Assembly: GCA_013360195.1 (NCBI GenBank)
Contig: JABWCQ010000007.1
Span: 62,001-126,000 of the forward strand
Length of the DNA stretch: 64,000 nt
Reading direction: 5' to 3'
Source: a bacterium
GTDB lineage: Bacteria; Electryoneota; RPQS01
Shown here: in pieces, positions 3,809-64,000 of the stretch
Layout of the letters: the number at the start of each line of letters is the position of its first letter
How positions within the stretch are numbered: the first letter of the stretch is position 1
Notes under the pieces: model-generated
Told to the model about the DNA's origin: nothing
The model's input: only the letters and a program-made list of their open reading frames with translations
Database searches by the model: none
Program-made: the position numbers and the translations under genes

Positions 3809-3819
3809 AAGGAACCGAA

Positions 3820-3848: not shown

Positions 3849-3866
3849 GTCAGGCCGTCCGCCGTC

Positions 3867-3895
3867 TTGCCTTTCCTCTGAATTATTGCTACTTT
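3867..3895 (+). promoter_or_regulatory. Candidate smpB promoter
   Basis: TTGCCT (3867-3872), 17-bp spacer, TACTTT (3890-3895). A start near 3902 would make an ATG at 3904 almost leaderless, which favours the ATG at 3922. Confidence 0.45.
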
Positions 3896-3921
3896 AGCTG
3901 GTCATGGAGGCTAAGGAAGGC

Positions 3922-4374: not shown

Positions 4375-4394
4375 TACCTTAGTGAGAACCAAAT

Positions 4395-5375
4395 ATGCGT
4401 TTTGCCGCATTGTGTTTACTCATCGCCGCAATCATGCTGTCCGGCTGCGGAGCTGGCGGCGAGAAATTCCCCAGTGAAACCCGGACCGTCTTCGGTCTGC
4501 CAGTTACCGTCACTGTGTTCATCTCCGATGCCAAACCCGACGAAGTGCAAGGAGCCTTTGACGCGGTCTTCAATACTCTGAAATGGTACGAAGGAGCTGC
4601 ATACACTTCCGGAAAAGACAATCAGCTTGAACGCATCGCTTCCGGTGCCGGCCGCGAGTCAGTGCCCGTGGACACGGCCGTGTACAATCTTATCATGCGC
4701 GGATTGCAACTGAATGACATGACCGGCGAAGCGTTTGACCTGCGCTATGGACCGCTGCTCGATGCCTGGCTGGCAACCGGAAAGCCTTCCAAACCTGCAC
4801 AAGCCGACTTGGACAGCGCGCTTGCGTTAATCAAAACCGGCGGTATGTTCGTGGCAGGCAAATCCATCCTGCTCTCGAAACCAGAAATGCGATTTGATGC
4901 CCGCGGACTGGTGGAAGCCTGGGCTATTGACCGAGCTGCGGAGCGACTGGTCGAAAAGGGATTGTCTGCATTCGAAATACGTACACCCTATGCCATCCGG
5001 GTAGTCGGCATGCCACAAAACTCACAGTTTCGCACGTTCAACATCGCGGATCCAGTTTCGGGCGACAGCACTTGGGCGACGCTCCAAATCGGACAAGGTG
5101 GACTTGCCTTCCTTCCGGCGGTCGGTCAAGGAGGCCGACTTGTCCTCGATCCTCGCACGGGCGAGGAGGCGAAAGGTGCTGCGATAGTCGCGGCGAAGGA
5201 TTGCGCCACAGCGTTCGGATTGGCATACGCTTTGAATGTGGACGGCGACCTGACAAAGTTGACGGATAAGGGCAAAGCGGAACTCATGGGACATATCCGC
5301 ATTAGTGGTTCCCGGCCAAGCTATTCTATAGCCGCCGAAGGCGTGCTCAAGGATAAACTCTCCACTCGCAACTAA
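4395..5375 (+). CDS. ApbE-family lipoprotein, apparently catalytically degenerate
   Basis: 326 residues. An N-terminal lipoprotein signal ends in LSGC (Cys18). The body is collinear with ApbE, the FAD:protein FMN transferase that flavinylates periplasmic proteins: GEAFDLRYGPLLDAW at 111-125 and LDPRTG at 251-256 are clear. Key positions are changed, however. The family's GG(I/L)AKGY-type loop reads DARGLVEAW at 168-176, and the C-terminal Mg-binding Asp and Thr of the D-x3-T motif are replaced by Phe274 and Tyr278. It probably no longer transfers FMN and may bind flavin or a partner protein. It lies 20 nt after smpB and 2 nt before a GT9 gene. Confidence 0.8.
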   Translation: MRFAALCLLIAAIMLSGCGAGGEKFPSETRTVFGLPVTVTVFISDAKPDEVQGAFDAVFNTLKWYEGAAYTSGKDNQLERIASGAGRESVPVDTAVYNLIMRGLQLNDMTGEAFDLRYGPLLDAWLATGKPSKPAQADLDSALALIKTGGMFVAGKSILLSKPEMRFDARGLVEAWAIDRAAERLVEKGLSAFEIRTPYAIRVVGMPQNSQFRTFNIADPVSGDSTWATLQIGQGGLAFLPAVGQGGRLVLDPRTGEEAKGAAIVAAKDCATAFGLAYALNVDGDLTKLTDKGKAELMGHIRISGSRPSYSIAAEGVLKDKLSTRN

Positions 5376-5377
5376 TC

Positions 5378-6361
5378 TTGTCCGAGCCGGGCAGCAGTAT
5401 CCTTGTCATCAGGCTGTCTTCATTGGGAGACGTTCTGTTGTGTGCCCCTGCGATACGTTCACTTCGAACAAGATTTCCCCAGGCGACCCTTGACTTTCTC
5501 GTGGCCTCCGAATTTGCCGACGCTGCGCGGCTGATTCCAGGAATTGACAACATTATCGAGTTCGACAAACGAGACGGATGGCGCGGCATACTTAAGCTGC
5601 GCCGTTTGTTTTTTCGCAAGTATGATTTGATCTGCGACTTTCAAAACAGTCCGCGCAGCGCATTTCTGCGAACATTCACCTTCCCCATGATGTGGACAAA
5701 AGCCAAGCGGTACCGACTTCGACGATGGCTGCTGATTCGCTTCAAACTGAATCTTTACCGTGCATCCGTACCTGTGCCGCTGCGCTATCTGAATTCGCTT
5801 GCCGTGCTTGGCGCTGTCGACGATCAAAGAGGACTCGGTCTGCGTGTGCCGGAAGCCCAGAAGAAGGATTCCACGACGAATACGATCATGTTGTGCCCGG
5901 GCTCAAAGCACGCGACCAAGCGCTGGCCGATTGAGCACTGGTCTGAACTCGCACGCGCCCTGCAATTCGCAGGTTTCGAAATCGTTGTCTGTGGCACACA
6001 GGACGAAGCCGAGTTGTGCAGGGCTGTCGCTCCAAGTGCTCGTCAGTTGATTAGCGCAGGGCTGTCGGAAATAGCACAGGAAATGCAGTCAGCCGCGGCA
6101 GTCGTCTGTAATGACTCTGGCTTGATGCACCTCGCGACAGGGGTTGGGGCCCGTGTCATCGCGTTGTTTGGGCCAACCGTGGAGCAATTCGGATTCTTTC
6201 CTTTTCGAGGACAAAGTGAAGTGATTCAAACTGACTTGAATTGCCGGCCCTGCTCGGCTTTCGGAGGCAGCAAGTGTCCGTTGGGACATCACAACTGCAT
6301 GAACCACATTACTCCCGAAGCGGTGAAGGCCGCAACCCTCGAATTCTCGCAAAGGCAATGA
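5378..6361 (+). CDS. GT9 glycosyltransferase (heptosyltransferase-like)
   Basis: 327 residues with the two-Rossmann GT-B layout of ADP-heptose:LPS heptosyltransferases. ILVIRLSSLGDVLL opens the N-terminal domain, and the C-terminal domain has PGSKHATKRWP (the sugar-nucleotide loop), CNDSGLMHLATGVG and ALFGPT. A cysteine cluster (CRPC, CPLGHHNC) near the end is common in this family. It probably adds a heptose or related sugar to the LPS inner core at the inner membrane. The start is TTG, 2 nt after the previous stop. It is directly followed by waaA, which makes the acceptor. Confidence 0.9.
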   Translation: MSEPGSSILVIRLSSLGDVLLCAPAIRSLRTRFPQATLDFLVASEFADAARLIPGIDNIIEFDKRDGWRGILKLRRLFFRKYDLICDFQNSPRSAFLRTFTFPMMWTKAKRYRLRRWLLIRFKLNLYRASVPVPLRYLNSLAVLGAVDDQRGLGLRVPEAQKKDSTTNTIMLCPGSKHATKRWPIEHWSELARALQFAGFEIVVCGTQDEAELCRAVAPSARQLISAGLSEIAQEMQSAAAVVCNDSGLMHLATGVGARVIALFGPTVEQFGFFPFRGQSEVIQTDLNCRPCSAFGGSKCPLGHHNCMNHITPEAVKAATLEFSQRQ

Positions 6362-6362
6362 C

Positions 6363-7628
6363 GTGTTAGCCAAGTTCACGGCAAAGTTGTTATACAATGT
6401 CATCGGTTATCCGTTGCTCTTTGCCGGTGCCCATGCGGCCGCCCTTTTCTCGCGCAAGTTGCGGATTGGAATTTCCGGAAGACGTCGGGTAGTCCGGCAT
6501 GCATTGCAATTCCGTCATTCACAACCAAACGCCCGATTGGTCTTGTTTCACTGTGCCTCGGCAGGCGAACTCGAAGGAGTCAAACCGTTGGCCGCCGCAT
6601 GTCGTCAACAAGGCTACTTACCGTGCGTAAGCTACTTTTCTCCTTCAGCCGAAACCAGCCTTAAGCCAGGGGAATTCGAATTTGCAGACTACAGCCCATT
6701 CGATTCCGCTCGCGCTGTCTCAAGATTCCTTGGTGCATTGAGGCCGGAAGTGATACTTATCAGCAAACACGACGTCTGGCCAAATCTGGTTTGGCAAGCA
6801 AAGAGATTGAAGATACCGATTTGGCTTATTAACGGGAATTTTCACGCCGCCTCAACAAAGTCCATTCCAGGTGTCATTCAGTTCCACAGGTGCGTTTACT
6901 CTGACCTGACGGGTATTTTGACTGTATCTGATGACGACGCCAAGCGGGCAAGACGCTTCGCCGGGGAACGCGAAACTGTTCTGGCCGTAGGTGACTCCCG
7001 CTTTGACCGGGTTTTGGCCAGAGCTAAGAACTCCAAGTCTCCATATCCGGAGTTTGAAAAGGAACTGCTTGCACGCACGTTCTTAGTCGCAGGAAGTACA
7101 CATGACGCGGATGTCGGACTCCTCGTTTCGGCTTTAGGCGGAATGCGTGACAAATGCCCTAATCTACAGCTAATCATTGTTCCGCATGATCCCTCTGACG
7201 ATGAGTTTCAAAGGATAAAGGGCCATGCAGAACGTTCGGGATTCGATTGCAAGGAAATCGGGACTGACTCGTTAGGTGCGGACATCATAGTGATGAATCG
7301 CTCAGGTATACTTGCGGACATCTACAGGTATGGCAAACTTGCGTTTGTCGGAGGCGGGTTTGACCGCGGCGTTCACAGCGTGCTTGAACCGATGGCTCAT
7401 GGTCTGCGGGTAATTACGGGGCCTCGAATTGAAGTGTCACGAGAAGCGAATGAAGCTTTGGAAGAAGGCATTTTAAGAGTTGTTTTCGACGCGGCGGGAC
7501 TGGAGCAAGCTTTTGCGGATTTTTACTCGACCCATGTTGACACCAACCCAAAGGAATTTGTCCGACAACGCTCAGGCGTCGTTGATCGGGTGATGAAGCT
7601 GGTCTTGCCGCAAAATGCCATTGCTTAG
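6363..7628 (+). CDS. waaA: 3-deoxy-D-manno-octulosonic acid (Kdo) transferase
   Basis: 421 residues, usual for WaaA/KdtA, which transfers Kdo from CMP-Kdo to lipid A on the inner-membrane cytosolic face. A hydrophobic N-terminal anchor (VIGYPLLFAGAHAAALF) precedes HCASAGELEG (catalytic glutamate), VILISKHDVWPN, INGNFHAAS, and the CMP-binding C-terminal half with AGSTHDAD, VPHDP and VGGGFDRGVHSVLEPMAHG. GTG start one base after the GT9 stop. Its end overlaps the next ATPase gene by 14 nt. Its presence shows the organism makes Kdo-lipid A. Confidence 0.95.
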   Translation: MLAKFTAKLLYNVIGYPLLFAGAHAAALFSRKLRIGISGRRRVVRHALQFRHSQPNARLVLFHCASAGELEGVKPLAAACRQQGYLPCVSYFSPSAETSLKPGEFEFADYSPFDSARAVSRFLGALRPEVILISKHDVWPNLVWQAKRLKIPIWLINGNFHAASTKSIPGVIQFHRCVYSDLTGILTVSDDDAKRARRFAGERETVLAVGDSRFDRVLARAKNSKSPYPEFEKELLARTFLVAGSTHDADVGLLVSALGGMRDKCPNLQLIIVPHDPSDDEFQRIKGHAERSGFDCKEIGTDSLGADIIVMNRSGILADIYRYGKLAFVGGGFDRGVHSVLEPMAHGLRVITGPRIEVSREANEALEEGILRVVFDAAGLEQAFADFYSTHVDTNPKEFVRQRSGVVDRVMKLVLPQNAIA

Positions 7629-8229
7629 TTTGAAAGATGTCTATGCCGGATACGCGGACGGACCGGATGTTCTAAAAGGTGTTTCACTTTCTCTTGAAAA
7701 CGGAGAATGTGTTGCAATAGTCGGTGTGAACGGAAGTGGGAAGTCAACGTTACTGCGTGTAATTGCCGGGCTGTGCAAGCCAAGAAAAGGAATCGTCACT
7801 TATACCGGGAAGTCAAATCCCGCCTTTCTTCTTCAGAATCCGAAGCAACAGATGTTGTGCGGAACGGTGCGTGAAGAAATTGAGTATTCAATGGTGATGA
7901 ATTATCCCGACGAGCCTGATTTGGACGGCAGAGTACACGCACAATTAATGCGATTTGGACTTCAAGATCGTGCGGATTTGCCGCCTGCATCACTTTCTGG
8001 CGGCCAACAGCAGAAGCTTGCACTTGCAGCTCTACTGTGCAGGGAACCTGAACTTCTTCTCCTGGATGAGCCAGACAGCTTTCTTGACGGCAGGTCACGA
8101 TCCGAGTTCAGGTCATTTCTATTCAGCAACTTTCGGGCTGGCATTGTTTGGATTGTATCACGCATAAATGAGCTGCCTCCAAATGCTCGTGGCCTGCGGC
8201 TGCAATCAGGAACACTTGTGGAGGTCTGA
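7615..8229 (+). CDS. ECF/cobalt-type ABC transporter ATPase, H-loop histidine missing
   Basis: 204 residues, short for an EcfA/CbiO ATPase. It has Walker A GVNGSGKST (about 37-45), a Q-loop LLQNPKQQM, signature LSGGQQQK, and Walker B LLLLDEP. After Walker B the strand that normally ends in the switch histidine reads GIVWIVSRI, so the histidine is absent and one of the two ATP sites may be inactive. The best family match by motif is the ATPase pair of energy-coupling factor transporters, but no EcfT or substrate-binding S protein is in the window. It overlaps waaA by 14 nt, so it is translationally coupled to lipid A-core genes. Confidence 0.85.
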   Translation: MPLLSLKDVYAGYADGPDVLKGVSLSLENGECVAIVGVNGSGKSTLLRVIAGLCKPRKGIVTYTGKSNPAFLLQNPKQQMLCGTVREEIEYSMVMNYPDEPDLDGRVHAQLMRFGLQDRADLPPASLSGGQQQKLALAALLCREPELLLLDEPDSFLDGRSRSEFRSFLFSNFRAGIVWIVSRINELPPNARGLRLQSGTLVEV

Positions 8230-8249
8230 GCTCCAACGGAGAAGACAGG

Positions 8250-8921
8250 ATGACAGAAGTCATTTCGTGTTGTGAATTGGTCTACACACACGGCGGGCGA
8301 TCCGGTGCAATTCAAGGTGTAAGTGCGCGCTTTTTCAGAGGCACGGTTAACTACATTGTCGGACCGTCAGGTGCTGGAAAGACGACTCTCGCTCTGCTCT
8401 TTGCGGGTGTATTTACACCCGAATCCGGCAATGTCAGGAGACCCCAATTCGAATTACCCGGCCTCGTACTTCAATTTCCTGAGGAACTCTTTCTAACCGA
8501 TTCCGTTGAAGAAGAGCTTGCGCTGATTCCAGACAGCGAAGCCGAAGGCGTTGTGCTTGAAGCGCTTAATGAACTTGGTCTCCCTTTTTCTGACATTTTC
8601 AATCAGCGGCTCAAAAGTCTGTCATTCGGTCAGAAACGGCTGTTCGCGGCCGCCTTGCAAACTGCGCTGTCGGCCTCGGTAATGATATTCGATGAGCCGA
8701 CGCTCGGTCTCGACGAAAGAAATCTTAGCGTGATTTCAAATTGGATAAAATCGCGATGTGACAATGACATGTGCGCAATTGTTGTTACACACGATCTTGA
8801 CTTGATGAAACAGCTTCCGGGAACTGTAATTGCATTAGATCGAGGGAAGATTGTCTGGAGCGGGGAGACACGAGAACTCCTCAGAAGCAAAGACATTCTG
8901 AATCTGACTAATCTTAACTAA
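8250..8921 (+). CDS. ECF/cobalt-type ABC transporter ATPase
   Basis: 223 residues and the second half of the ATPase pair. Walker A GPSGAGKTT, Q-loop LQFPEEL (the FPE after the Q is typical of ECF ATPases), signature LSFGQKR, Walker B VMIFDEPT and an intact H-loop VVTHDLDLM. With the previous gene it would form an asymmetric heterodimer with one good site. The missing membrane subunits must be encoded elsewhere, or the pair energises another process. A terminator follows immediately. Confidence 0.88.
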   Translation: MTEVISCCELVYTHGGRSGAIQGVSARFFRGTVNYIVGPSGAGKTTLALLFAGVFTPESGNVRRPQFELPGLVLQFPEELFLTDSVEEELALIPDSEAEGVVLEALNELGLPFSDIFNQRLKSLSFGQKRLFAAALQTALSASVMIFDEPTLGLDERNLSVISNWIKSRCDNDMCAIVVTHDLDLMKQLPGTVIALDRGKIVWSGETRELLRSKDILNLTNLN

Positions 8922-8922
8922 A

Positions 8923-8949
8923 CAGGCCCGAACTTACGGGCCTGATTTT
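8923..8949 (+). terminator. Terminator of the smpB-ATPase gene run
   Basis: CAGGCCCG (8923-8930) and CGGGCCTG (8937-8944) form an 8-bp stem with a 6-nt loop, followed by ATTTT. It begins within 2 nt of the ATPase stop and separates it from the convergent OPT gene. Confidence 0.8.
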
Positions 8950-8964
8950 CGTGGAACTTTGAAG

Positions 8965-10833
8965 CTATTTTGCTGATCGCCAGAGCATATACACCAATGT
9001 ACCGTACGCGAGTGCCGTAATCGGCAGTTCGGCCATCCCGAGTATTCCGGCAAATGCACTTATCGATATCCCGGCAGTTGCAACGAGCGCAAGGCCAATT
9101 CCTATCAATGCTTCTCCCGCAATCAAGCCGGAACTGAATAGCACACCGCCGTCTTCGGATTCCGAAACACCACTTGAACGGAAGTGCTTCACAAGGGCTC
9201 CAGCCATCACACCTACCGACAATCCGACGGGCAGATACAATCCAACCGCAAACGCGAGGGAATTCACTGCAAACAACTCAACAATTGCGGCGATGAACAT
9301 GCCAAAGAATATTAGGCTCCACTGAAGCTCCCCATGCATAACCCCCTCGATTAAAATGGCCATGAGATTGGCCTGAGGCGCTTGCAGAGGCTTGGGATGT
9401 GTCGCATCCGCCACAAATCCATAGGTAGAGCCGAGTAGATGCACGACCCAACCTACAACTACCAATCCGCCAAGCAAGCCGATAAATTCCGCAATCTGTT
9501 GTTTAGCCGGAGTCGCGCCCAAGAGAAAGCCGGTTTTCAAGTCCTGCGACATATCGCCCGCGCAGCAAATTGCAACACAGACAATCGCACCAACGAGCAG
9601 TGCGGCAGTCATGCCTTCTACCCCGCCGATTCCGAGAGCCGTAAAGAGAAGTGTAGTGCCGAGTAGAGTTGCAATTGTCATTCCGCTTACCGGATTAGAA
9701 GAGGAACCGACAATTCCCACAATACGCGACGCTACCATGACAAAAATGAAACCAAAGACCGCGACAAGAATAATGGCGATGGGTACATGCGGGACGAGCA
9801 GCCATGACGCAAGTGATACCAGCACGGTGCCTATCAGAACAGCTCGCGGCGGAAGGTCCCTATCTGTGCGTTTATTGCCTTCAATTGACCGTGAGTTGCC
9901 GCGTAATCTTGACAAAGATCTTACCAAAGACGGAGTTGCCTTCAGCAGACTCAGGATTCCACCCATCGTTACTGCGCCTGCACCGATATAACGGACATAA
10001 TCGGATCGTATGGACTCGCTATCCAGTGTCGAAATGAGCTCGGTTGCAGGGAAGATCGGTACGACAGAGCTTGAGCCAAAAAACGCAATTATTGGGACGA
10101 GCACCACTGAACTTAAGAGTCCTCCCGCGAGCATGATCGCAGATACGCGAAGCCCAATAATGTATCCAACACCGACCAAGGCAGGAATTGCATCAATGCC
10201 AATATATGATTTCTGCGGAGTCTTGAAGAAAACGCTTGCGGACTCGCGAAGAACAGCGGCTCCTGTCAACAATTTGTAGCCGGCCCCAACTATTAGTCCC
10301 CAGAATACCTTTTTTGCATGGTCCCCGCCTTTTTCACCGGCAATGAGGACTTCTGCACATGCAGTTCCTTCCGGGTACGGAAGAGTTTCATGCTCGTCTC
10401 GAATCAGCATTCGTCGAAGCGGGATCATCATAAGAATTCCAAGTGCACCACCAATCAGGGCAATATAGGCGATGGTCCATGCACTTGGTATCTCCACATT
10501 TCTACCGGTTTGATTCCAAATGAACAGCGCGGGAATCGTAAAAATGATTCCTGCTGCCATTGATTCTCCGGCGGAGGCAGTAGTTTGAACGATATTGTTT
10601 TCAAGAATAGTACCGTTTCGAAACATACGCCGCAGTATGAACATCGACATTACGGCCGCAGGAATGGAAGCACTTACTGTCATTCCAATATACAATCCCA
10701 GATACGCATTTGCTGCCGTAAATACGATGCCAAGCACGACACCGAGTACAAGCGCACGTATTGTAGACTCGGCCATATTGGTCCCCGAGCTTACATATGG
10801 ACGGAATTCCCTAATTGACATTTTATCATCCAT
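8965..10833 (-). CDS. OPT family oligopeptide/metal-chelate transporter
   Basis: 622 residues with about 15 hydrophobic segments. Family signatures are EFRPYVSSGTNMAE near the start, then ENNIVQTTASAGESMAAG, PYPEGTACAEVL and CAGDMSQDLKTGFLLGATP. OPT proteins are proton-coupled inner-membrane importers of oligopeptides or metal-siderophore complexes; the bacterial substrate is rarely known. It is the last gene of the minus-strand glycosyltransferase string, 12 nt after the GT2 gene, an unexpected partner for LPS genes. It converges on the ATPase pair across a terminator. Confidence 0.92.
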   Translation of the reverse strand: MDDKMSIREFRPYVSSGTNMAESTIRALVLGVVLGIVFTAANAYLGLYIGMTVSASIPAAVMSMFILRRMFRNGTILENNIVQTTASAGESMAAGIIFTIPALFIWNQTGRNVEIPSAWTIAYIALIGGALGILMMIPLRRMLIRDEHETLPYPEGTACAEVLIAGEKGGDHAKKVFWGLIVGAGYKLLTGAAVLRESASVFFKTPQKSYIGIDAIPALVGVGYIIGLRVSAIMLAGGLLSSVVLVPIIAFFGSSSVVPIFPATELISTLDSESIRSDYVRYIGAGAVTMGGILSLLKATPSLVRSLSRLRGNSRSIEGNKRTDRDLPPRAVLIGTVLVSLASWLLVPHVPIAIILVAVFGFIFVMVASRIVGIVGSSSNPVSGMTIATLLGTTLLFTALGIGGVEGMTAALLVGAIVCVAICCAGDMSQDLKTGFLLGATPAKQQIAEFIGLLGGLVVVGWVVHLLGSTYGFVADATHPKPLQAPQANLMAILIEGVMHGELQWSLIFFGMFIAAIVELFAVNSLAFAVGLYLPVGLSVGVMAGALVKHFRSSGVSESEDGGVLFSSGLIAGEALIGIGLALVATAGISISAFAGILGMAELPITALAYGTLVYMLWRSAK

Positions 10834-52963: not shown

Positions 52964-54655
52964 TTAAAATAAACTCAAAAGTGAGACGTGCAGTTGCCCG
53001 TTCAAGGGAGAACTGCCGTCTGCTATACCGTAATCTATCCCCCATACGCCTATTGCCGTTTCCAATCGGACCCCGATTCCGTAAGCGCCCCGAATTAGAT
53101 TGCGTGGCGTACCGGCGGCTGCAGCAGGGGAGTCGTTTATTGCTGCCCAATCCGTGAAGAAATGGACTCTTGACGACAATCCGAGCCAATATCGAGCTTC
53201 AACTGACGTCCACGCAATTCTGGAACCTAGGAATTGCTCTTCACGATACCCCCTCAGCGAGTTCGCTCCTCCCAGCCGAAACCTGTCAGATGACTGAATG
53301 CGCGGCTCATCCGATTCGATCAACCTGGCATGCCCGCTGAGATGGACAATCCAATACCTGGCAACCTCATGATTGAATTCCAGATCAAGAACCGCACGGC
53401 GCAATTCAAAGCTACGTCTGTTTGACCCTTGCGGTCGACTATCAGTCAAACGTTGACCCCGTGAACCGCTTGTCTCAAATCTATAACCGCTCCGGGGATT
53501 TCTGAAGTGGTCTCGCGTGTCGACAAGAATGCCAAGCTCAAGAAAGACGGTATTGTGCGGCGAAATACTAAGCAATGATGCTACTGCGGAATCCGCCAAC
53601 AATTCCGACCGCGTGACGCCGCCAAAGATGTCAGTATTGGACGCAATCGGCACACCAAGCCGCGCGCCATAATCACGAGTCACATACAAGGTGTCCTCGA
53701 CTCGTTGAGCAAATGAACCTTCCAGGTAAAGTGGCAAGCGTGCGAGCCATGTCTCTCTCCATGCAAATAAAAGTTCCTGAATTCCTTTTGCTGGTTTTGT
53801 CCACTTTACCTTGCCACGCCTGCCAGTTCCAAACAAGTTTAGAAATTGCAGGTCCACATATGCGGTAAATGTCTGCTCGCCGATGTCATTTCTCGGACTC
53901 AAGCCTGCAACCAAATCAAGCCTGGAAAGCTTATTCTCCTCAACTTCAAACACAATGCCGGTCCTACCTGCTTCACCAACTACTATTCTTGGTTCGCGCA
54001 CGCTGCGAATGAATTCAAGCTGAGACAGTCGACGATGTGCTGATTGAACTCGTAGTTGGTTAAAACTCATTCCGTTCTTAAGCCGGCTCTCTTTGGCAAG
54101 CATCCATGACTGTGAAATGTCATTTCCTTCAAATCCAATAAAGTCTATGCTCACCAAAGGACCAGCCAGTACTCTCACATAAGGTGTAACAAAATGAGAA
54201 TCGGCGTTCACTGAAAACGAATCTAATTCTACACGTGCGTATGGGTAGCCATTTGATTCGCACCATGACAGAATTTCGTTCGCAGATTCGGTTATTCTGG
54301 CGAGATCAAACTCACCGCTGCGCGACCACGGGAGAGTCTCATTGGACACCTTCCAAAGTACTGCAGAGTCTCCGGAGACATTGGCACTCCGGAAATGATA
54401 CTGTTTGCCCGTGTTTACGAATATCGTATCACCATGCTGGTAAACGTTGCACTCCAAATATCCGAGGCAAATGAGAGAATCACCGACTATCGCTGCTGGG
54501 TCAATGTCCTCTTCGCCGCCGACAAGACTTAACCACGTCTGTACGACCGGTTCACTGAATCCCCTTACATGGAGGCTCTCGATTCCCTTGCCAAATGCGC
54601 TGCCAAGCGTGCAAATTATGCCGAGGCACATTATGGATATTCGAAAAGCGAGCAT
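52964..54655 (-). CDS. Omp85/TamA-like outer-membrane assembly protein
   Basis: 563 residues with a signal peptide ending near SAFG. About residues 20-245 hold POTRA-like repeats (LHVRGFSEPV, VSIDFIGFEGNDI), the rest a 16-strand bacterial surface antigen barrel with the conserved RFRLGGANSLRGYREEQFLGSR region split around LRGY, and a terminal Phe. Size and layout fit TamA better than BamA (about 800 residues). Its gene is directly coupled to the 1137-residue barrel gene (TAATG), suggesting it serves or accompanies that protein. An AGCCATT/AATGGCT hairpin follows the stop. Confidence 0.88.
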   Translation of the reverse strand: MLAFRISIMCLGIICTLGSAFGKGIESLHVRGFSEPVVQTWLSLVGGEEDIDPAAIVGDSLICLGYLECNVYQHGDTIFVNTGKQYHFRSANVSGDSAVLWKVSNETLPWSRSGEFDLARITESANEILSWCESNGYPYARVELDSFSVNADSHFVTPYVRVLAGPLVSIDFIGFEGNDISQSWMLAKESRLKNGMSFNQLRVQSAHRRLSQLEFIRSVREPRIVVGEAGRTGIVFEVEENKLSRLDLVAGLSPRNDIGEQTFTAYVDLQFLNLFGTGRRGKVKWTKPAKGIQELLFAWRETWLARLPLYLEGSFAQRVEDTLYVTRDYGARLGVPIASNTDIFGGVTRSELLADSAVASLLSISPHNTVFLELGILVDTRDHFRNPRSGYRFETSGSRGQRLTDSRPQGSNRRSFELRRAVLDLEFNHEVARYWIVHLSGHARLIESDEPRIQSSDRFRLGGANSLRGYREEQFLGSRIAWTSVEARYWLGLSSRVHFFTDWAAINDSPAAAAGTPRNLIRGAYGIGVRLETAIGVWGIDYGIADGSSPLNGQLHVSLLSLF

Positions 54656-57600
54656 TAGAAATTAGCCCTTGCCTCTACGCGGCCAACATTAATAATGTCC
54701 TCGCCCGCGTCACGCCGACCCGAATATTCAATTGAACCAGAAAAGTTTGCCGAGAATGAATAAGTCACTCTAAACGACCAGCGAAAATTCTCGCCGCGAT
54801 TCGATCCTTCACCGATTGACTGGGATAACCTGCTTCGATTTGATCCGACATGTGTCCATTGGAATTCTCCGTCCGCTCTGCCCCTTTGATATTTTGTGTA
54901 CGATATCCTTGGAGCTAATGTTCGTATGGACGCCTGTGTTCTTGATTTCTCGTCAGCACTCTCAACACCCACTATCTTCAGGCCTGCTTCCCAAGGGGAA
55001 GCAGAAGACCAAACTACATCCTCTTGGACTCTGAATCTTCGAATATCGGAACTCTCAGCCGCCAATCCTTGATAGATCTGACGTTCAAGATCACATGATA
55101 TCTCCGTTTCCCCGCGAAATGCACTTGATATCACGTACCTCACGCGCAATGTGCCCGTATTTCCTGTTGTCAACTGCGAACCGTTCGTGTATCTTGAAAC
55201 TTGCGAACCGGAGTTCTGAACTCTTAGTCGAAGAGACCACTTCCTTGATAGCCTATTATAATGAACGTCTTGTCTTAATGAGAATCGTCCGTCAATCGTC
55301 GATGGGGTTCGAAGTTTGCGACGGTCAAGTAACAAAAGCCCGATTGTAATGGCGTCGCGCGTTTGCTCTTCTACGGTCGCTTCGGTCTCGAAGGAAAGGC
55401 GGCTCCAGATTGGGTTTCCTTCCCCTTTAGTCTCGTCTGGCCGGATCCAGATTTGGCTTGATGCGCGAATTTCCGACGAAGGACTAAAGTCACCCGTATT
55501 GCGACTGACAAGAATAAAGTCTCCTTGGTCATCGGGTACATACGTACCGTTGACAAGACTATAGGAACCGCTGCCAGGAGTAACGGGGACGAAAAGCTGC
55601 AATTGCTGCTCTGTCCGAGACTTCAAGGCATCATAGGTTGCATTAAATTCAAGTACTCTGTTACGGGGCGACACAAATAGTTCAAATCTTCCAGCATCTG
55701 ACGAAACTGACATGGAATCTGGATTCTCGTAATTTCTGTCCCGATGACTCCATCTAACACTGCCACGTCCGGTTTCATTAGGCATCCAGCGTACCTCGCC
55801 AGCCCACCCGACTGACTCCGATACCTTACTGAAGATGCTTCCGCTTGATCGTGTGTCATCTTGTCGAAATCCGGCTTCAGCTTCAATCTCAATATCCGAA
55901 GGAAGTTTGTACGCACTGCCAAACGAAATGTCGTTAAACCTGAAGCCGCTCTCAGCAGAACGTGAATCTCGCAATTGCCGTTCACGATTCAAAGTTGCTC
56001 GTGGCAGGAAACCCCTCCAAGCTGTCCTGCCCTCCATGCGCTGCCGAACCCAATCCGTGTGTCGCTCATCAGTGCTGTCATCGCTAATAATGCTTAAGTG
56101 TTCTGCATACAACGAGGTTGATCTCATCGGCTGAAATGTCGCGTTCGTGCTAATCCGGGTGCTATTGAATGCCTCGCCTCTGGCAAGCGCACCGACACTT
56201 CCGCCGATGTTGAATGAGCGTATCGGTGAAACACCAACACTTAGTTGAGCATTCTGCTCATCCTCTTGTCTGGCCAACGATCCTGCCCACATCCTGTCAA
56301 ACTCAACCTCATCGCTTCTACTCAAGTCACTGTATGACTTGTCCCGAATATTACCCTCCAAGTTTGCGACAAAGTTTCTGAGTTTGAACTTGTATAGATC
56401 CAGTTCAGGGGCATTGTAGCCCAACTGGACGGTTGCCGCTGCGCCATTATTGTCTGAATCATTTAGACCGGAAAAAGAATTTCGATCATGATTACTCAAT
56501 GCGATTTCCGCACTTCCGTTGAAACCTACATCCCGTCCATGTGCAACTCGAATCGCCGCCAAATCCTTGGATGAAGGTAAAGGTAATCTGCGAGCAGCCT
56601 TGTAACGACCAACCCCAATGCCGACAAATCGGTAGTATGTCCTCCCAAGGGAGTCTGCTTCCGCAACATACTCGCCACCACCGTTGCCAAAGTCATCAAA
56701 GAACACTTGCCAATCACCTTGCGGGACGCCCTGGGGGGACGGAAAGACATACACAAAGTACGAGTACTCCTGACTCTCAATAAGTGTATCCCGCCGAACG
56801 TAATCTCCCAGGTTCGGACCCACAGAATCGGCCGACTCTGTAATTGCTAATCCCGCAGAGTCGCCAGCAAATGCGAGTGCCTTTCGATCAAGGCTGTCGA
56901 GTGCGAATCCAAGCGGCCTGTTTCTGTCGTCTCGTTCAGTGATGAATGTTGCGAAAACATTAGAATTCAGTTTCCGCGAATGTGCCGTTGCACGCGACGC
57001 CCAGAACTGCCTCTCATAATCTTCATTGGCGTATTCAAACTCGACGAATATTCGCGAATCGGACGTAATTAATCTACGAGACGTGAAGGTAATCTGACCT
57101 GCAGAATAGTCAATAATATAGTCGTTATCGCTCCCCCTGCGCAACTGAAGTCCGTCAAGCCAGACAGTTTCGGTGCCTGCAAGAATGACGATATGAGACT
57201 CGCCGTTTCGTCCTGTCAAACTGTAAGGGCCCTGCACGCTCTCCTCGCCTGAGAAGCGATTTGAAGCGTATTCACCTCGCCCCACCGCCGCAGAGACTTG
57301 AGCTGATGCAGATTCGTGGATCGCACCAAGTGTCAAACCAGTGAGCTTTCTGGAATAGGCGTCATAGCGGCCGCCCGCCAGTTCCAGTTCATAATCGCCA
57401 ATAGTCGCCTTGAAATGCTCCGACTTGGCAGTTACAAAAACTTTGTCCAGTTCGCGAATTGATTCCGTCGTTCCTTCCGGCTGTATCGGCAAATTTTGGT
57501 CGCTCAGGGCCGCCACAATTTCGACGTTTGACCCCACTTTTCCTTCAACTTGCAACGAAAGAGCAGACTCAAAAGACAAGTCTTGATTTGTACCAATCTG

Positions 57601-58068
57601 AATACTTCGAATCAACGAACCAGCTCGTCTCAGACTCGTCCAGTTCTGCTCGACAGCATCGGAACGTGATGAATCCAGATTACTTCTGCCTCTGTCTGAA
57701 AGTGGTACCCATGGCTTCAAATCCGCAAGGGAACGGCGCGAATAGGATCTAAGCAGCGAAAACGGCGCATACACATAATCTACAAGAATTGTGTCTCCTT
57801 CTGCTAAAGGCGCCAGGAGTCGAATCGAATTCCCCTGCAGATCGACTCTGTAATCCTTCAAAGGTTCAAGATAAAACTCATTCTTCTGTACCGTTATGGA
57901 CTCGGTGCTTATCCACGTGTGTCGTAGTGTGACAATCAACTCTCCACCGCTTGCCACATATTCAGTCTGCCCCTTCCTCCAATAGCTTCCGCCTTCGCAG
58001 TAACCCAAATGGCTTAAGCAAGAAAGCAGAATTAGAGTTACTATTGTGGAAGTGAATAGTGTTCGCAC
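54655..58068 (-). CDS. Giant outer-membrane barrel-like protein, possibly SprA-related
   Basis: 1137 residues with a signal peptide ending near GYCEG. Residues about 40-115 and 290-345 are Ig-like; the second holds IIDYSAGQITFTSRRLITSDSRIF in pieces, a pattern seen in the SprA/Sov family of T9SS translocons. From about 500 to the end the protein alternates short hydrophobic strands with polar loops rich in Arg, Asp and Ser and ends VEARANF, a barrel-type C-terminus. I infer an outer-membrane barrel of more than 30 strands. The function is unknown; SprA itself is about twice as long. It lies 19 nt after the NHL gene. Confidence 0.65.
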   Translation of the reverse strand: MRTLFTSTIVTLILLSCLSHLGYCEGGSYWRKGQTEYVASGGELIVTLRHTWISTESITVQKNEFYLEPLKDYRVDLQGNSIRLLAPLAEGDTILVDYVYAPFSLLRSYSRRSLADLKPWVPLSDRGRSNLDSSRSDAVEQNWTSLRRAGSLIRSIQIGTNQDLSFESALSLQVEGKVGSNVEIVAALSDQNLPIQPEGTTESIRELDKVFVTAKSEHFKATIGDYELELAGGRYDAYSRKLTGLTLGAIHESASAQVSAAVGRGEYASNRFSGEESVQGPYSLTGRNGESHIVILAGTETVWLDGLQLRRGSDNDYIIDYSAGQITFTSRRLITSDSRIFVEFEYANEDYERQFWASRATAHSRKLNSNVFATFITERDDRNRPLGFALDSLDRKALAFAGDSAGLAITESADSVGPNLGDYVRRDTLIESQEYSYFVYVFPSPQGVPQGDWQVFFDDFGNGGGEYVAEADSLGRTYYRFVGIGVGRYKAARRLPLPSSKDLAAIRVAHGRDVGFNGSAEIALSNHDRNSFSGLNDSDNNGAAATVQLGYNAPELDLYKFKLRNFVANLEGNIRDKSYSDLSRSDEVEFDRMWAGSLARQEDEQNAQLSVGVSPIRSFNIGGSVGALARGEAFNSTRISTNATFQPMRSTSLYAEHLSIISDDSTDERHTDWVRQRMEGRTAWRGFLPRATLNRERQLRDSRSAESGFRFNDISFGSAYKLPSDIEIEAEAGFRQDDTRSSGSIFSKVSESVGWAGEVRWMPNETGRGSVRWSHRDRNYENPDSMSVSSDAGRFELFVSPRNRVLEFNATYDALKSRTEQQLQLFVPVTPGSGSYSLVNGTYVPDDQGDFILVSRNTGDFSPSSEIRASSQIWIRPDETKGEGNPIWSRLSFETEATVEEQTRDAITIGLLLLDRRKLRTPSTIDGRFSLRQDVHYNRLSRKWSLRLRVQNSGSQVSRYTNGSQLTTGNTGTLRVRYVISSAFRGETEISCDLERQIYQGLAAESSDIRRFRVQEDVVWSSASPWEAGLKIVGVESADEKSRTQASIRTLAPRISYTKYQRGRADGEFQWTHVGSNRSRLSQSIGEGSNRGENFRWSFRVTYSFSANFSGSIEYSGRRDAGEDIINVGRVEARANF

Positions 58069-58087
58069 AGTATTGTGCTTTTCATGA

Positions 58088-58942
58088 CTATGGCCAATGT
58101 AACAGGAGAATGCGCCCGCTGCGAGAATCTAGAATATATAGATCATTGGAGGATCGTGCTTCCAAGCGTAAGTCTTTCGCGAATTGCGACGCGATGTCAA
58201 TCACTTCCAAGGCAACAACTGAGAAGTTTCCCTGGTCTGTACGCACAATCCCCTGATCTGACACAGCAAACCACGTCTGACCTACTCCGGTCAATTGATA
58301 TAAATCGGTCGATGGGAAGCCTGCTTGCCAGAGTCTTGCATTACTTAAATTATTGTCACAAGTGTATGCCTTCTGGGTGGCATCATCTATCCAATACAAG
58401 TCGTCAGATATGCAATCTAATGACACCGGTGCCGTCAAGATTCCGCCAACTTGACCGCCAATTCTACCGACAGCCGTGAAAAAACGGTCGTACTTGATGA
58501 TTTGATTGTTGCTATTCTCATATATGAACAAATCACCTTCGATATTAGATGCAATCATTCTCGGTTCAAGTACTTCACCGGCTGCATCTCTGATTACAAA
58601 TTCTCCGCGCCACTCAAGCAGTCTTGAATACTCCACAATTCGCTTGTTGCCTGCATCCACGACATAAACGCCGCCACTTCCACTAATTGCAACGTCTACT
58701 GGCCACCGAAGTTCCCCGTCCGAGCCCCCCTGACTGCTTTCATAGAGCACATTCCCGGATTCATTGAGGGCTATTACCTTACTGTTTCCGGCATCAACGA
58801 CATAAATTGAGTTGTCAAATCCAATCGCTAGTGATGTCGCTCTCCTAAACAACTTGTTGCGACCGACAATTTCCTTGACTACAGGGTCCTCCTGAGCGTA
58901 ACTGCTTACCACGAGAATCAATGACAAGCACAACACAATCAT
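58088..58942 (-). CDS. Secreted NHL-repeat beta-propeller protein
   Basis: 284 residues from the ATG overlapping the glgA stop (ATGA); this start begins the signal peptide MIVLCLSLILVVSSYA. Repeats such as NSIYVVDAGNSKVIAL, GVYVVDAGNKRIVEY and NDLYILDSRSGRIL are NHL blades, about six in all. It is probably periplasmic or lipid-free surface-exposed and binds protein. Its position right before the giant barrel gene suggests a shared complex. Confidence 0.85.
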   Translation of the reverse strand: MIVLCLSLILVVSSYAQEDPVVKEIVGRNKLFRRATSLAIGFDNSIYVVDAGNSKVIALNESGNVLYESSQGGSDGELRWPVDVAISGSGGVYVVDAGNKRIVEYSRLLEWRGEFVIRDAAGEVLEPRMIASNIEGDLFIYENSNNQIIKYDRFFTAVGRIGGQVGGILTAPVSLDCISDDLYWIDDATQKAYTCDNNLSNARLWQAGFPSTDLYQLTGVGQTWFAVSDQGIVRTDQGNFSVVALEVIDIASQFAKDLRLEARSSNDLYILDSRSGRILLLHWP

Positions 58943-60423
58943 CGATATGATCTTTCTGAAGAAAGAACCCGTCGATACATCTCTTCGTATACTCGCGCCG
59001 AACGGCGCCAACTAAAGTCTTCCTTCATTCCGTTTCGCTGAATCCTCCGCCATTTCTCAGTGTTACGAAAAGCGCTAAACGCTTTCTTTAATGTCAGGGA
59101 AAGCGCATGAGAACTGTACTCTCGAAAAAGAAATCCGGTACCACCTCTGGGATTATGATGAAAATCGGATATAGTATCGGCGAGTCCACCCGTCTCCCTT
59201 GCAACGGGTGGTGCTCCATATCGAAGGGCCATCATCTGACTCAAACCACAGGGTTCGAAGAGGGACGGCATTAGGAAGATATCGCATCCCCCATAAATCA
59301 GATGAGATAGGGGTTCGTTGTACTCTGTAATCAAACGAATACGATTCGGGTAAGCTCGCTCCAATACTCGCAGTTTTGACTCATAATCTGGATCACCGCT
59401 GCCAAGAATGACAACTTGTGCCGGGGCGCTAATAATCTCCCCGATAATTGGCAGCAGGATCCCGAAACCCTTTTGTTCTGAGATGCGTGTCACCATACCT
59501 ACAAGTGGTGTCGACTGCTTGTAGTCAAATGAACAATGCTCGCAAAGCGCTCTCTTGTTTCGGTTTCGTGCTACAAGCGTTGTTGAATTGTATGTGACTG
59601 CAAGTGCCGCATCTGTTTCGGGATTCCATACCGTCGTATCTAATCCGTTCAGGATGCCCGAAAAGTGTGCATGTCGATTATGCAGCAATGAACTCAAGCC
59701 GAATCCCATATGTTCAACGGTTCGCAGTTCATGTGCATACGTAGGACTGACAGTATTGATTGCATCAGCCATTTCAATAGCCAGCTTAAGTAGATTGAAC
59801 ATACCGTGAAATTCTGCAGGCCCGCCAAGTTCCGCATAATCCTCAGCATGATCATACCAAGCCCTCGACCCGCCGTGCAGCCGGCCCTGAAATGCCATAT
59901 TGTGGATGGTGAAAACAAACCTGGATAAATCAAAGAAACCGTTGAAACGAGGAGATCGAATGAACAAAGGCAACCCGCCTGATTGCCAGTCATGTCCATG
60001 AACAATGTCGGGTCTCCAATCGTTGCTCTGGCACCAAGTCAACGCTGCGCAGGCAAGAAGCGCAAAACGCACATCATTGTCTTCATAGTCACGGTTCGTT
60101 ATGGGATCATTGTAATATCCCGACCGGTCAAACAGTTCATCGCATTTGACAAAAACATATTTGAGTCTCTCGGTGTCATGCTTGTGCTCTGCAAAAACTA
60201 CTGGAAAAGTCCGTGAGTTAATCTGTATCTTAGCCGCATTCCAGTAGCCGTTTGATTCGAATAACCTGATGTTGCCATAGAACGGTGATACAACCACAAC
60301 CTCATGTCCATGTTCAGCCAAAGCTTTCGGCAACGACGCGGCAACATCAGCAAGCCCTCCGCTCTTGCTGAATGGTGCAACCTCAGAGGAAACATGAATT
60401 ACTTTGAGTTTGTCTTTATTCAT
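58939..60423 (-). CDS. glgA: Glycogen/starch synthase (ADP-glucose type)
   Basis: 494 residues. VSSEVAPFSKSGGLADVAASLP with the KxGG ADP-glucose site, HGHDWQSGG, FTIHNMAFQG, TVSPTYAHE, and in the C-terminal GT5 domain GMVTRISEQKG and LMPSLFEPCGLSQM. It elongates alpha-1,4-glucan from ADP-glucose. No glgB or glgC is nearby. It overlaps the diguanylate cyclase gene by 4 nt and the NHL gene by 4 nt. Confidence 0.95.
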   Translation of the reverse strand: MNKDKLKVIHVSSEVAPFSKSGGLADVAASLPKALAEHGHEVVVVSPFYGNIRLFESNGYWNAAKIQINSRTFPVVFAEHKHDTERLKYVFVKCDELFDRSGYYNDPITNRDYEDNDVRFALLACAALTWCQSNDWRPDIVHGHDWQSGGLPLFIRSPRFNGFFDLSRFVFTIHNMAFQGRLHGGSRAWYDHAEDYAELGGPAEFHGMFNLLKLAIEMADAINTVSPTYAHELRTVEHMGFGLSSLLHNRHAHFSGILNGLDTTVWNPETDAALAVTYNSTTLVARNRNKRALCEHCSFDYKQSTPLVGMVTRISEQKGFGILLPIIGEIISAPAQVVILGSGDPDYESKLRVLERAYPNRIRLITEYNEPLSHLIYGGCDIFLMPSLFEPCGLSQMMALRYGAPPVARETGGLADTISDFHHNPRGGTGFLFREYSSHALSLTLKKAFSAFRNTEKWRRIQRNGMKEDFSWRRSARVYEEMYRRVLSSERSYR

Positions 60424-61802
60424 TCAAGAGTTGCAAGTCTCACCAAGTTCCGGCCATTTCGCTTCACCCAATATAGGGCACGATCGGCGCGGTCAATCAT
60501 GTCCTCAGGACTCTTGCAGCCCGCACTGTCCGTTACGCCGCAAGAAATCGTGATCGGCGCCAATTTTTCGCCTGTATCCGCAACGATCTCTCCGGATGAA
60601 ATCACCTTGCGGATTTTCTCGGCAACAATTAGCCCTTGCTCGGCGCGAACTTCAGGGAGAATAAGTGCAAACTCTTCTCCGCCGTACCGTGCAACAACAT
60701 CAATGTCACGTACCGTACGGCGAATCATGCTGGCTACCCACGTCAATACACGGTTCCCGGCTTGGTGGCCATAAGTATCATTGTAATTCTTGAACCCGTC
60801 TACATCTATCATAAGAAGGCTGATAACACCGCCATACCGCAAGGACCGCTGATACTCCGTTCTTAACTGCGTCAGGAAGAACCGATGATTGAACAGATTT
60901 GTCAGTCCGTCCACCATTGCCATGCGTTGTGTTCTAAAGTGCAAGGCGCTACGGTCAAATACTAGCGATAGTCCATGCTGAACTGTTGGAAGTGAAGACT
61001 CCTCGGAAGTTGATATCAGTGGACGGCGGACAAAGAGTAGCTTAATTATCCCATGCCGTTGCCCGCGGTGGACGAGAGGCACGAATAGCCCGGATGTGAG
61101 TCCGCTTGCCTGATTCGCTGCAAACAACGGCATCTCGCGCTCACTTAACTCGGCGACAAACTCCGTGCTTCCTTTCCGAAACAAGCCTTCTTCGTAGTTT
61201 TGAGATAGCGGCGATGGCCATTGAAACTCGGAACGAGACGCGAAAATCCACGACCACCCTTCAGGTCGGTCTGGCCAGTATGTGCTCGAATTTGCAGGTG
61301 CTATCTCCAGATAATCAGGAGCAAACAAACTGCGAAGTCGTTGCTCAATTGCATCGAAAAAGTCCGCGCCCTCTCTATCAAATCTATGCTCAGCCTGAAT
61401 ACACTCAAGCGCTCTGCAGCGGCATCGCTGCTCCCACAGCTTCCAGAGGTTCTCAATAACATTTCGTATGCCGTTTCCTTCAGTACTTCGCTTCGGCTGG
61501 TCGAGCCGTACTCCGAACGCAACAAGTTCTGATTGCACTTTATCCAAGTCTGCCAAACCAATAGTAAATCTCTCGCCGTGCACGTGGAATAATGCGGGGC
61601 ACAAGGGCTCCGGCTCAACGACAACTAAGATGTTCTCGTCCGCAAAGATGTCTATGGTCGTGCTGCCGTACTCTGACTCCATTCTATCCGCATGGCCAAC
61701 GAGAAAGTCGTCCACCGCCCGAAGTTCTTCGCCTGAAGCGCGCAAAAGTCTCCAATTCACCAATTTGTCTGACGCATGCAGTCTAGCGATAAGAGAAGTC
61801 AT
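60420..61802 (-). CDS. Diguanylate cyclase (GAF-GGDEF)
   Basis: 460 residues, no membrane segments. The region at about 140-285 looks like a GAF domain; the GGDEF domain runs from about 295, with MIDVDGFKNYNDTYGHQAGN, active site RYGGEEFALILPE and an upstream RDID that fits the RxxD product-inhibition site. It makes c-di-GMP. Its coupling to glgA and surface-protein genes suggests envelope or attachment control, but the output is unknown. Confidence 0.92.
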   Translation of the reverse strand: MTSLIARLHASDKLVNWRLLRASGEELRAVDDFLVGHADRMESEYGSTTIDIFADENILVVVEPEPLCPALFHVHGERFTIGLADLDKVQSELVAFGVRLDQPKRSTEGNGIRNVIENLWKLWEQRCRCRALECIQAEHRFDREGADFFDAIEQRLRSLFAPDYLEIAPANSSTYWPDRPEGWSWIFASRSEFQWPSPLSQNYEEGLFRKGSTEFVAELSEREMPLFAANQASGLTSGLFVPLVHRGQRHGIIKLLFVRRPLISTSEESSLPTVQHGLSLVFDRSALHFRTQRMAMVDGLTNLFNHRFFLTQLRTEYQRSLRYGGVISLLMIDVDGFKNYNDTYGHQAGNRVLTWVASMIRRTVRDIDVVARYGGEEFALILPEVRAEQGLIVAEKIRKVISSGEIVADTGEKLAPITISCGVTDSAGCKSPEDMIDRADRALYWVKRNGRNLVRLATLE

Positions 61803-61815
61803 TGTTGGGGAAGTT

Positions 61816-63075
61816 TCAATAGCGCTTGACTGTTGATGTAAACTCGTACACCTGCTCCCCTGCGATCCAGACTTCGTCGGCGTGGCATGCTCCCATAAAA
61901 TAAGGTAGGGACTCCGGTGAAGGTAAGTTCCACAAGCTGAAATCCGCTTGCCTGCCGGGTTCTATCGATCCCGCCAAATCTTGAATTCCAAGTGCCCGCG
62001 CTGAATCCAGAGTCACAGACCAAAGCAGCTCGTTCATGGTGAGTTTGCCGTATATTGCCGCGGTAGTCATGCAAAACGGTATTGATTCCGTCATTGACGT
62101 CCCCGGATTCATGTCCGTTGCAACAGCTAATCTTATTCCCGAATCCAGCATTTTCCGCATCGGGGGATATGGTATTGAGTTCATGCAATAGACGCACGCG
62201 GGAAGAGCAACGCATACGACACCTGCGTTATGCAAACGCGTAATTTCATCGTCATTCAAATACTCAAGATGATCTGCGCTGCGTGCACCGAGCTCAGCGG
62301 CAAGGAGAGCACCGCCCGAATGTCCAAATTGATTGGCATGTATCGTTATGTCCATTCCAAGTGCTTTTGCGGCACTCAGAATAGTTCTTGAGTCTTCCAC
62401 CGAAAATGCGCCGCGCTCGCAAAATACGTCCACCCTCCCAGCCAGTCCGCGCTCTCGAGTTTCAGGTATGATCTGATCTGTCACTTCTTGAACAAAAGTG
62501 TCGCGCTTGCTCGCTAGTTCCAAAGGAACGGCATGTATCAACAAGGTCTTGACCATTCTCTGTGGCACAATCTTCTCTATTTCGCGCATAGCGACGAGCA
62601 GTCTCTCTTCACCGGCCCAGGTCAACCCATATCCGCTCTTGCATTCGATCGTTGTCACTCCGCCGGCTAAAGACATCTCGAATCTCGGGAGTGATTCACG
62701 AACGATCTGCTCGACCGAGGCAGCAGCAATTCTGCGAGCAGTTGCGTGAATTCCTCCTCCCTTCTCGGATATTTCTTGATACGACGCTCCGCGGTTACGC
62801 AAGTAGAACTCTCCCGCACGGTTGCCAACAAATATCGGATGTGCATGGCAATCGACAAAACCGGGAAGCATTAGCTTGTGCAGAGCATTGTATCGAGGAA
62901 CGCTCGTTGGAACCCGATTTAGCAAGTCAAACGACCTGCCTATTTCCTTGAAATGACCGTTCTCAATCCATACGGCAGCGTTATGAAGTTCCTGTACTGG
63001 CCGCCGCAGATCGTCAGCGTCCTTCAGCTGCGGTGTCGCTAAAGTCCCGATATCAAAAATCAGAGCTGAATTCAA
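61816..63075 (-). CDS. hutI: Imidazolonepropionase
   Basis: 419 residues. It hydrolyses imidazolone propionate to formiminoglutamate in histidine breakdown. LMLPGFVDCHAHPIFVGNRAGEF, GGGIHATARRIAAA, GVTTIECKSGYGL, DITIHANQFGHSGG, SADHLEYLNDDE and VATDMNPGTSMTES carry the metal and substrate residues of the family. No hutU, hutH or hutG is seen in the window, so the rest of the pathway is elsewhere or further upstream of 64000. Confidence 0.95.
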   Translation of the reverse strand: MNSALIFDIGTLATPQLKDADDLRRPVQELHNAAVWIENGHFKEIGRSFDLLNRVPTSVPRYNALHKLMLPGFVDCHAHPIFVGNRAGEFYLRNRGASYQEISEKGGGIHATARRIAAASVEQIVRESLPRFEMSLAGGVTTIECKSGYGLTWAGEERLLVAMREIEKIVPQRMVKTLLIHAVPLELASKRDTFVQEVTDQIIPETRERGLAGRVDVFCERGAFSVEDSRTILSAAKALGMDITIHANQFGHSGGALLAAELGARSADHLEYLNDDEITRLHNAGVVCVALPACVYCMNSIPYPPMRKMLDSGIRLAVATDMNPGTSMTESIPFCMTTAAIYGKLTMNELLWSVTLDSARALGIQDLAGSIEPGRQADFSLWNLPSPESLPYFMGACHADEVWIAGEQVYEFTSTVKRY

Positions 63076-63077: not shown

Positions 63078-63860
63078 TTATTCCCCGGAAAATGCTGCTT
63101 CACGTTTTTCGAGAAAGGCGGTGGTGCCTTCCAGCTTGTCTTTTGTGCCGCAGCAAAGGGCGAACAACTCTTCCTCAATTCTTAGTGCATCGGTAAGAGG
63201 CTTTCCTGCGCCGCGATAGACGGCTTCTAGGATCGCTTTGCGTGCAAGCGGCGCGAGCTGCGCAAGTTGTGTTGCAAGTTCAATTGCTCTGGTCTGAATT
63301 GTTTCCGGTGCAGCAACTTCATTGACAAGACCCCATTGCAATGCCGTATTCGCATCTATCATTCGCGCCGTAAGTAACAGGTCTAGTGCTCTGCCACCGC
63401 CAATTAACCGCGCAAGTCTTTGGGTGCCGCCGTATCCAGGAATAATGCCCAACTTTATCTCAGGTTGGCCGAATTTCGCCTTCTCTGACGCAATTCGAAG
63501 ATGGCACGACATTGCCAATTCGCATCCTCCACCAAGCGCGAAACCATTTACGGCGGCGATGACTGGTATCGGCAAAGACTCTATCCGCGAAAACAACCGA
63601 TTGCCGCGCTCGGTAAATAGTTTGCCTGTCTTAGAATCCAATTCCCGAATCTCAATTATGTCCGCGCCTGCGACAAAACTCTTCTCGCCTGAACCTGTAA
63701 TCACGAGTGCCCGGATTTCCGGCGTGATTTCTTTATCCAGACAGTGCTCAAGTTCAGTAAGTGTCGCCCCGTTCAAGGCGTTCAGCGCCTTCGGTCGGTT
63801 TATCGTAATCTGCCCGACCGGACCCGAAGTACTCCAGATTATGTTCTCGTAGTTCATCAT
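63078..63860 (-). CDS. Enoyl-CoA hydratase/isomerase family protein (crotonase)
   Basis: 260 residues. SFVAGADIIEI, AAVNGFALGGGCELAMSC and FGQPEIKLGIIPGYGGTQRL show the oxyanion hole and both catalytic glutamates of short-chain enoyl-CoA hydratase. It acts in beta-oxidation or butyryl-CoA metabolism, which would fit the acyl-CoA mutase at 26229. Two ATGs in a row begin it, overlapping the upstream stop (TAATG). It is 2 nt from hutI. Confidence 0.93.
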   Translation of the reverse strand: MMNYENIIWSTSGPVGQITINRPKALNALNGATLTELEHCLDKEITPEIRALVITGSGEKSFVAGADIIEIRELDSKTGKLFTERGNRLFSRIESLPIPVIAAVNGFALGGGCELAMSCHLRIASEKAKFGQPEIKLGIIPGYGGTQRLARLIGGGRALDLLLTARMIDANTALQWGLVNEVAAPETIQTRAIELATQLAQLAPLARKAILEAVYRGAGKPLTDALRIEEELFALCCGTKDKLEGTTAFLEKREAAFSGE

Positions 63861-64000
63861 TAGTAGTTTAGTCCCGGTATCCTGACGTTTTTCGTAATTG
63901 CGGTTTCTGTCGCCAATTCGTACCCGGCATCATGATGACGAAATATGCCCATTGCCGGATCGTTTGTCAATACTCGCTCAATTCGCCTGGCTGCATCATT
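63860..64000 (-). CDS. C-terminal fragment of an unidentified gene
   Basis: The minus strand is open from the window edge to a TAA at 63860-63862, giving 46 residues that end NVRIPGLNY. The stop overlaps the ATG of the enoyl-CoA hydratase gene, the same coupling seen along this string, so I believe it is real. Nothing recognisable is contained in the visible part. Confidence 0.6.

Follow-up and report, generated by a model that had tools for sequence, protein, structure and literature searches.

The window, the whole stretch of 64,000 nucleotides that was analyzed, ends in a tight run of minus-strand genes between positions 52964 and 64000. The initial annotation had described this run as an operon of eight genes, the truncated one included, and every gene, gap and small overlap was confirmed. 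The features are as follows.

52964-54655, minus strand: Omp85 protein of a separate subfamily, with a POTRA region (last POTRA at residues 170-240), an Omp85 barrel (273-544) and the invariant motif GG..RGY
54655-58068, minus strand: giant outer membrane barrel of 1137 aa, with about 38 long strands predicted, a signal peptide and a C-terminal F
57031-57201, minus strand: SprA-like beta module of the barrel (residues ~290-346, 'GTExVWLDG..LxRGxxNDYxIDYxxGxITFT'), inside its most conserved stretch
58088-58942, minus strand: secreted NHL beta-propeller without a lipobox (likely ATG start at 58942; listed frame 58088-59011)
58939-60423, minus strand: glgA, glycogen synthase, a phylum-specific neighbor
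60420-61802, minus strand: diguanylate cyclase of the GGDEF family (motif GGEEF), a phylum-specific neighbor
61816-63075, minus strand: hutI, imidazolonepropionase, a neighbor
63078-63860, minus strand: enoyl-CoA hydratase, a neighbor
63861-64000, minus strand: truncated frame, corresponding to the end of a hutU-like gene of 550 aa in a sister genome

The Omp85 and barrel genes overlap by 1 nt, and a 19-nt gap separates the barrel gene from NHL. glgA and the GGDEF gene overlap by 4 nt, 13 nt lie between the GGDEF gene and hutI, and 2 nt between hutI and the enoyl-CoA hydratase gene. The listed NHL frame begins with TTG 73 nt inside glgA. An alternative ATG at 58942 overlaps the glgA stop by 4 nt (ATGA) and lies directly ahead of the signal peptide; judged from these sequence features, it is more likely to be the true start than the listed TTG. 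Operon products were assigned to the Omp85 (with POTRA), NHL, glycogen synthase, GGDEF and imidazolonepropionase families, and the 1137-aa barrel protein has no family in Pfam or NCBIfam. The order hutI-GGDEF-glgA-NHL-barrel-Omp85 is maintained among genomes with 25–50% protein identity. Conservation of the operon is far above chance.

Gene neighborhood across phyla

Within the window's phylum, NHL lies directly upstream of the barrel gene in 31/33 loci and Omp85 directly downstream in 25/35. Outside the phylum, 12 cases of upstream NHL and 12 of downstream Omp85 were found, mostly in KSB1, Calditrichota and Zixibacteria, and NHL also precedes the barrel at locus L224. In Ignavibacteria NHL is not linked to the barrel, so it may be optional. 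The flanking genes vary. In KSB1 and Calditrichota the trio comes after rpsB-tsf-pyrH-frr (genes named by the starts of their sequences), and in Ignavibacteria TolC-MacA-MacB-permeases stand before the barrel with NUDIX-PfkB-IF-2B-like genes after it. glgA, GGDEF and hut genes accompany the trio only inside the window's phylum. The conserved unit is the trio, or the barrel with its Omp85, and glgA, GGDEF and hutI are local passengers. The row of three envelope genes singled out by the initial annotation is thus kept both within and outside the phylum, and its suggestion that the glucan and histidine enzymes are simply carried along is the better reading, since glgA and hutI stay with the trio only within the phylum.

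The initial annotation had also proposed regulation by c-di-GMP and export of a polymer. This proposal fared poorly because GGDEF and glgA stand with the trio only in the window's phylum and other genes flank it elsewhere. A c-di-GMP-regulated system that exports glucan or another polymer through the barrel as its exit pore is extremely improbable. GGDEF and glgA do adjoin the trio through most of the phylum, but the link is absent outside it, glgA is a cytosolic glycogen enzyme that probably lies outside the barrel machine, and no polymerase or export gene is found nearby. Furthermore, in genome G019 (locus L187) GGDEF-glgA remains with Omp85 and NHL-barrel is on another contig, the operon being split between glgA and NHL.

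Two other arrangements were seen. Four Ignavibacteria loci (L075, L082, L129 and L096, ~1-10000) carry a TolC-MacA-MacB-ATPase set before the barrel with 2–4 tandem MacB/FtsX-type permeases of ~410 aa, a tandem expansion that is itself unusual. In Calditrichia (L083:8698-9771 and L086) an extra propeller-type, lipoprotein-like gene is inserted between NHL and the barrel, with LVIVD repeats in L083.

The giant barrel family and SprA

A search with the single barrel protein gave matches in 39/41 relatives, both exceptions being outside the window's phylum. With the family profile, the barrel was found in all 34 genomes of the phylum that are at least 85% complete, always as a single copy; most of them give an additional weak match, which is a motif within SprA. 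At least 528 coding stretches came from a GTDB genome scan with the barrel profile, and the 80 best of them belong to records named KSB1, Calditrichaeota, LCP-89, Zixibacteria, Latescibacterota, Ignavibacteria, Melioribacter and Chloroherpetonaceae, among others. The family also occurs in Bacteroidota-type genomes. A literature search found no description of it. Complete copies in the window's phylum are ~1,110–1,290 aa long, the last residue is F or L in all 31 phylum members, and conservation peaks at residues 151-210 and 271-345. Two barrel genes are broken: that of the complete Ignavibacteriota genome G043 (IGN3; contig 1:1522786-1526234) has a frameshift or in-frame stop, and that of G003 (L015, ~11029) a TGA. 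Sequencing error or recent decay are possible causes.

The structure of the barrel was predicted with AlphaFold2. With 31 homologues the model reached a pLDDT of 80.5 and a pTM of 0.64, and with 91 homologues 88.3 and 0.78. Counting only strands of 8 residues or longer, the latter model has 38, spread over residues 145-1136 and interrupted by two inserted regions (~274-350 and ~386-499); a small N-terminal beta domain (31-100) precedes them. SprA chains ranked first in Foldseek searches of the PDB with either model, ahead of TonB-type receptors and LptD; TM-scores to SprA were low (0.24–0.30 of the query). A sequence search of the PDB with the barrel profile gave no match. The prediction supports an outer membrane barrel with a strand number like that of SprA, described in the available text of PMC12611786 as a 36-stranded, FCB-specific channel and giant barrel of that group. 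A very large barrel of more than 30 strands had been anticipated from the sequence, and about 38 were predicted. The alternative label of "half-SprA" suits the length of the protein and does not suit its strand number (~38 predicted vs 36).

Similarity to SprA was also examined at the sequence level. Matches of the barrel to SprA (TIGR04189) and to phage-tail models are only local, around residues 295-353. The window's barrel scores 24.2 bits against TIGR04189 over one 52-residue stretch, compared with a cut-off of 200, and a local match to this model occurs in 27/31 barrel members. hhalign aligned barrel residues 45-371 with SprA 374-689 at a probability of 95.6%, the alignment being convincing only at its ends, in the 'DYxIDYxxGxITF' module (290-346) and a similar module at 45-100. 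The SprA-like motifs noted in the initial annotation are supported by the local TIGR04189 match and hhalign. Both proteins occur in FCB-group bacteria and share the 'DYxIDYxxG' module and perhaps the second one in the same order; SprA is a giant single-chain outer membrane barrel, and the window's protein is predicted to be one. Unlike SprA, the window's barrel is half as long, has an Omp85 of its own and lacks SprA_N (PF14349), which found no match in 31 barrel members. The shared modules suggest that the barrel is at most a distant relative of SprA.

The barrel is not the T9SS translocon: the true SprA of the window's genome (2,098 aa, 753.5 bits) is encoded at a separate locus, which also holds the genome's sole PF14349 match.

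The Omp85 subfamily and its co-occurrence with the barrel

The Omp85 encoded beside the barrel was compared with known assembly factors. PF01103 was matched by 19/20 members of its family and the PF07244 POTRA by 20/20, and GG..RGY is invariant. The window's Omp85 shares POTRA domains, the Omp85 barrel and the RGY motif with BamA, but it is shorter (563 aa vs ~770) and scores 110 bits against TIGR03303 (BamA), below the cut-off of 297. In an IQ-TREE analysis of 66 rows, a 99/99 branch separates barrel-linked and unlinked Omp85s alike from BamA, TamA and other paralogues. The unlinked copies (f5 genomes, G019 and G037) are nested among linked ones, which suggests that linkage broke several times with both genes kept. 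An ancient barrel-Omp85 linkage with repeated breaks is the simplest reading of this tree.

The genome encodes BamA elsewhere, with neighbors resembling Skp, LpxD and LpxC (judged by sequence starts), and TamA lies with a 1,243-aa TamB-like gene on another contig. The "TamA-like" label of the initial annotation was abandoned because the Omp85 falls in a clade separate from TamA and a TamA-TamB-like pair exists elsewhere. Like TamA and TamL, the window's Omp85 is of similar length, has POTRA domains and would be a second assembly factor beside BamA. It differs in having no TamB adjoining and no consistent lipobox; a loose lipobox match was found in 2/20 family members and none in the window's Omp85, whereas TamL, an Omp85-lipoprotein subfamily, is described with an N-terminal lipobox in PMC4104836. 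The available text of that source lists Omp85 subfamilies and notes their expansion in Bacteroidetes/Chlorobi and Ignavibacteria; this barrel pairing does not appear in that text. An LptD analogue, another large outer membrane barrel, was likewise rejected, as PF19838 and PF04453 (LptD) gave no match in barrel members and LptD_2 is present at another locus. The LptD, BamA and TamA roles are already filled by other genes in the window's genome.

A profile search detected a high-scoring Omp85 homologue in 13/13 genomes tested, in 12 of which it is not beside the barrel. Co-occurrence was counted irrespective of linkage in 90 Bacteroidota-type genomes, drawn from the phylum of one Ignavibacteriota genome. 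The barrel was present in 62 of the 90. By a strict count at E≤1e-45, a threshold that could hide a very divergent Omp85 in a few barrel-negative genomes, the subfamily occurs in 54/62 barrel-positive and 0/28 barrel-negative genomes (Fisher 2e-16). For six of the eight remaining barrel-positive genomes, FastTree places an Omp85 of 536–572 aa as sister to the subfamily clade, for a total of 60/62 vs 0/28. The other two, G063 and G118, which have short, divergent barrels, yielded no Omp85 of this kind. In eight barrel-negative genomes examined, the best Omp85 matches group with BamA. The separate clade and these counts support the earlier suggestion that the Omp85 belongs specifically to this barrel.

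The Fisher values serve as a rough guide only, since the sampled genomes are not independent of each other; the repeated co-absences carry the argument. When mapped on an RpoB tree built for 29 genomes, the barrel absences require 6 changes, or 5 without row G081, which has a misread frame. SprA is retained in at least one member of four of the five absence groups. A shared ancestry of barrel and Omp85, with joint loss during general envelope simplification and no direct functional tie, is very improbable. A small-genome clade beside G050 that is without SprA, barrel and Omp85 alike would suit it, but several separate co-absences occur in SprA-keeping genomes with barrel-positive sisters or neighbors, and barrel and Omp85 are adjacent in several phyla with differing flanks.

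SprA itself is present in 62/62 barrel-positive and 9 barrel-negative genomes. Among these SprA-positive genomes, Omp85 was found in 60/62 with the barrel and 0/9 without it, so Omp85 follows the barrel and not SprA. A role for the barrel as accessory translocon, serving either the type IX secretion system or the gliding machinery and assembled by its Omp85, is in our view distinctly unlikely. Such a role would agree with the module that barrel and SprA have in common, with SprA in every barrel-positive genome of the sample and with the absence of the barrel from 19/19 SprA-negative ones. However, nine SprA-positive genomes do without the barrel, four genomes of the window's phylum (one 98% complete) have the barrel with no SprA_N match, and the barrel loci examined show no linkage to T9SS genes. 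Common ancestry and lifestyle could account for the nesting of the barrel within SprA-positive genomes.

A putative gated outer membrane conduit

On balance, we lean towards a reading in which the barrel, a dedicated Omp85 assembler and possibly an NHL cap make up a large gated outer membrane conduit distinct from SprA. The barrel would be a single chain of ~38 strands from a family separate from SprA. The adjoining Omp85 would fold and insert this one client, whose size or unusual build may be beyond the general BamA. The inserted regions at ~274-350 and ~386-499 could close the barrel lumen, and the secreted propeller could cap its periplasmic side, so that together they would form a gated passage for a substrate. 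Single-copy conservation, predicted strand content, the Omp85 clade, co-occurrence with co-absence and the NHL-barrel-Omp85 linkage are observed; that this Omp85 performs the insertion, and that the barrel is gated, capped and active in transport, is inferred.

Co-occurrence alone does not demonstrate assembly, and the Omp85 could instead be a working subunit, a TpsB-type translocase that moves a protein or lipid jointly with the giant barrel. We regard this as rather unlikely. Obligate pairing suits a subunit and an assembler equally well, barrel and Omp85 are kept or absent jointly even when unlinked, and 8/20 Omp85 family members also match ShlB/FhaC weakly. Conversely, the nearest full-length models are BamA-type, the POTRA of PF07244 is found in 20/20 members and the ShlB-type POTRA in 2/20, and no secreted partner gene recurs beside Omp85.

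In its broadest form, the assembler reading describes an ancient FCB-group machine, with a second family of giant channels (at least 36 strands), client-specific Omp85 insertases and a propeller cap in many lineages. We hold this only tentatively, at somewhat less than even confidence. If true, it would show that BamA homologues can specialize for a single barrel. That a giant barrel is nearly always accompanied by an Omp85 of its own points to dedicated assemblers for some barrels. Among single-chain barrels, the literature consulted names only SprA as being of this size. The family predicted here is a second giant one, conserved across FCB phyla as a single-copy gene, and the matching Omp85 subfamily is kept and absent with it, which bears on how cells fold such barrels. 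The specificity of an Omp85 for one client and the role of a conserved giant pore beside the T9SS become testable questions.

In the T9SS-type locus of the window's genome (C5:4900-19000, L135), genes for a signal-peptide protein, a GppA/Ppx-like product and PorV-like proteins come after the true SprA. The sister genome repeats this arrangement (L136), and the lineage carrying this locus is LCP-89/Zixibacteria-like.
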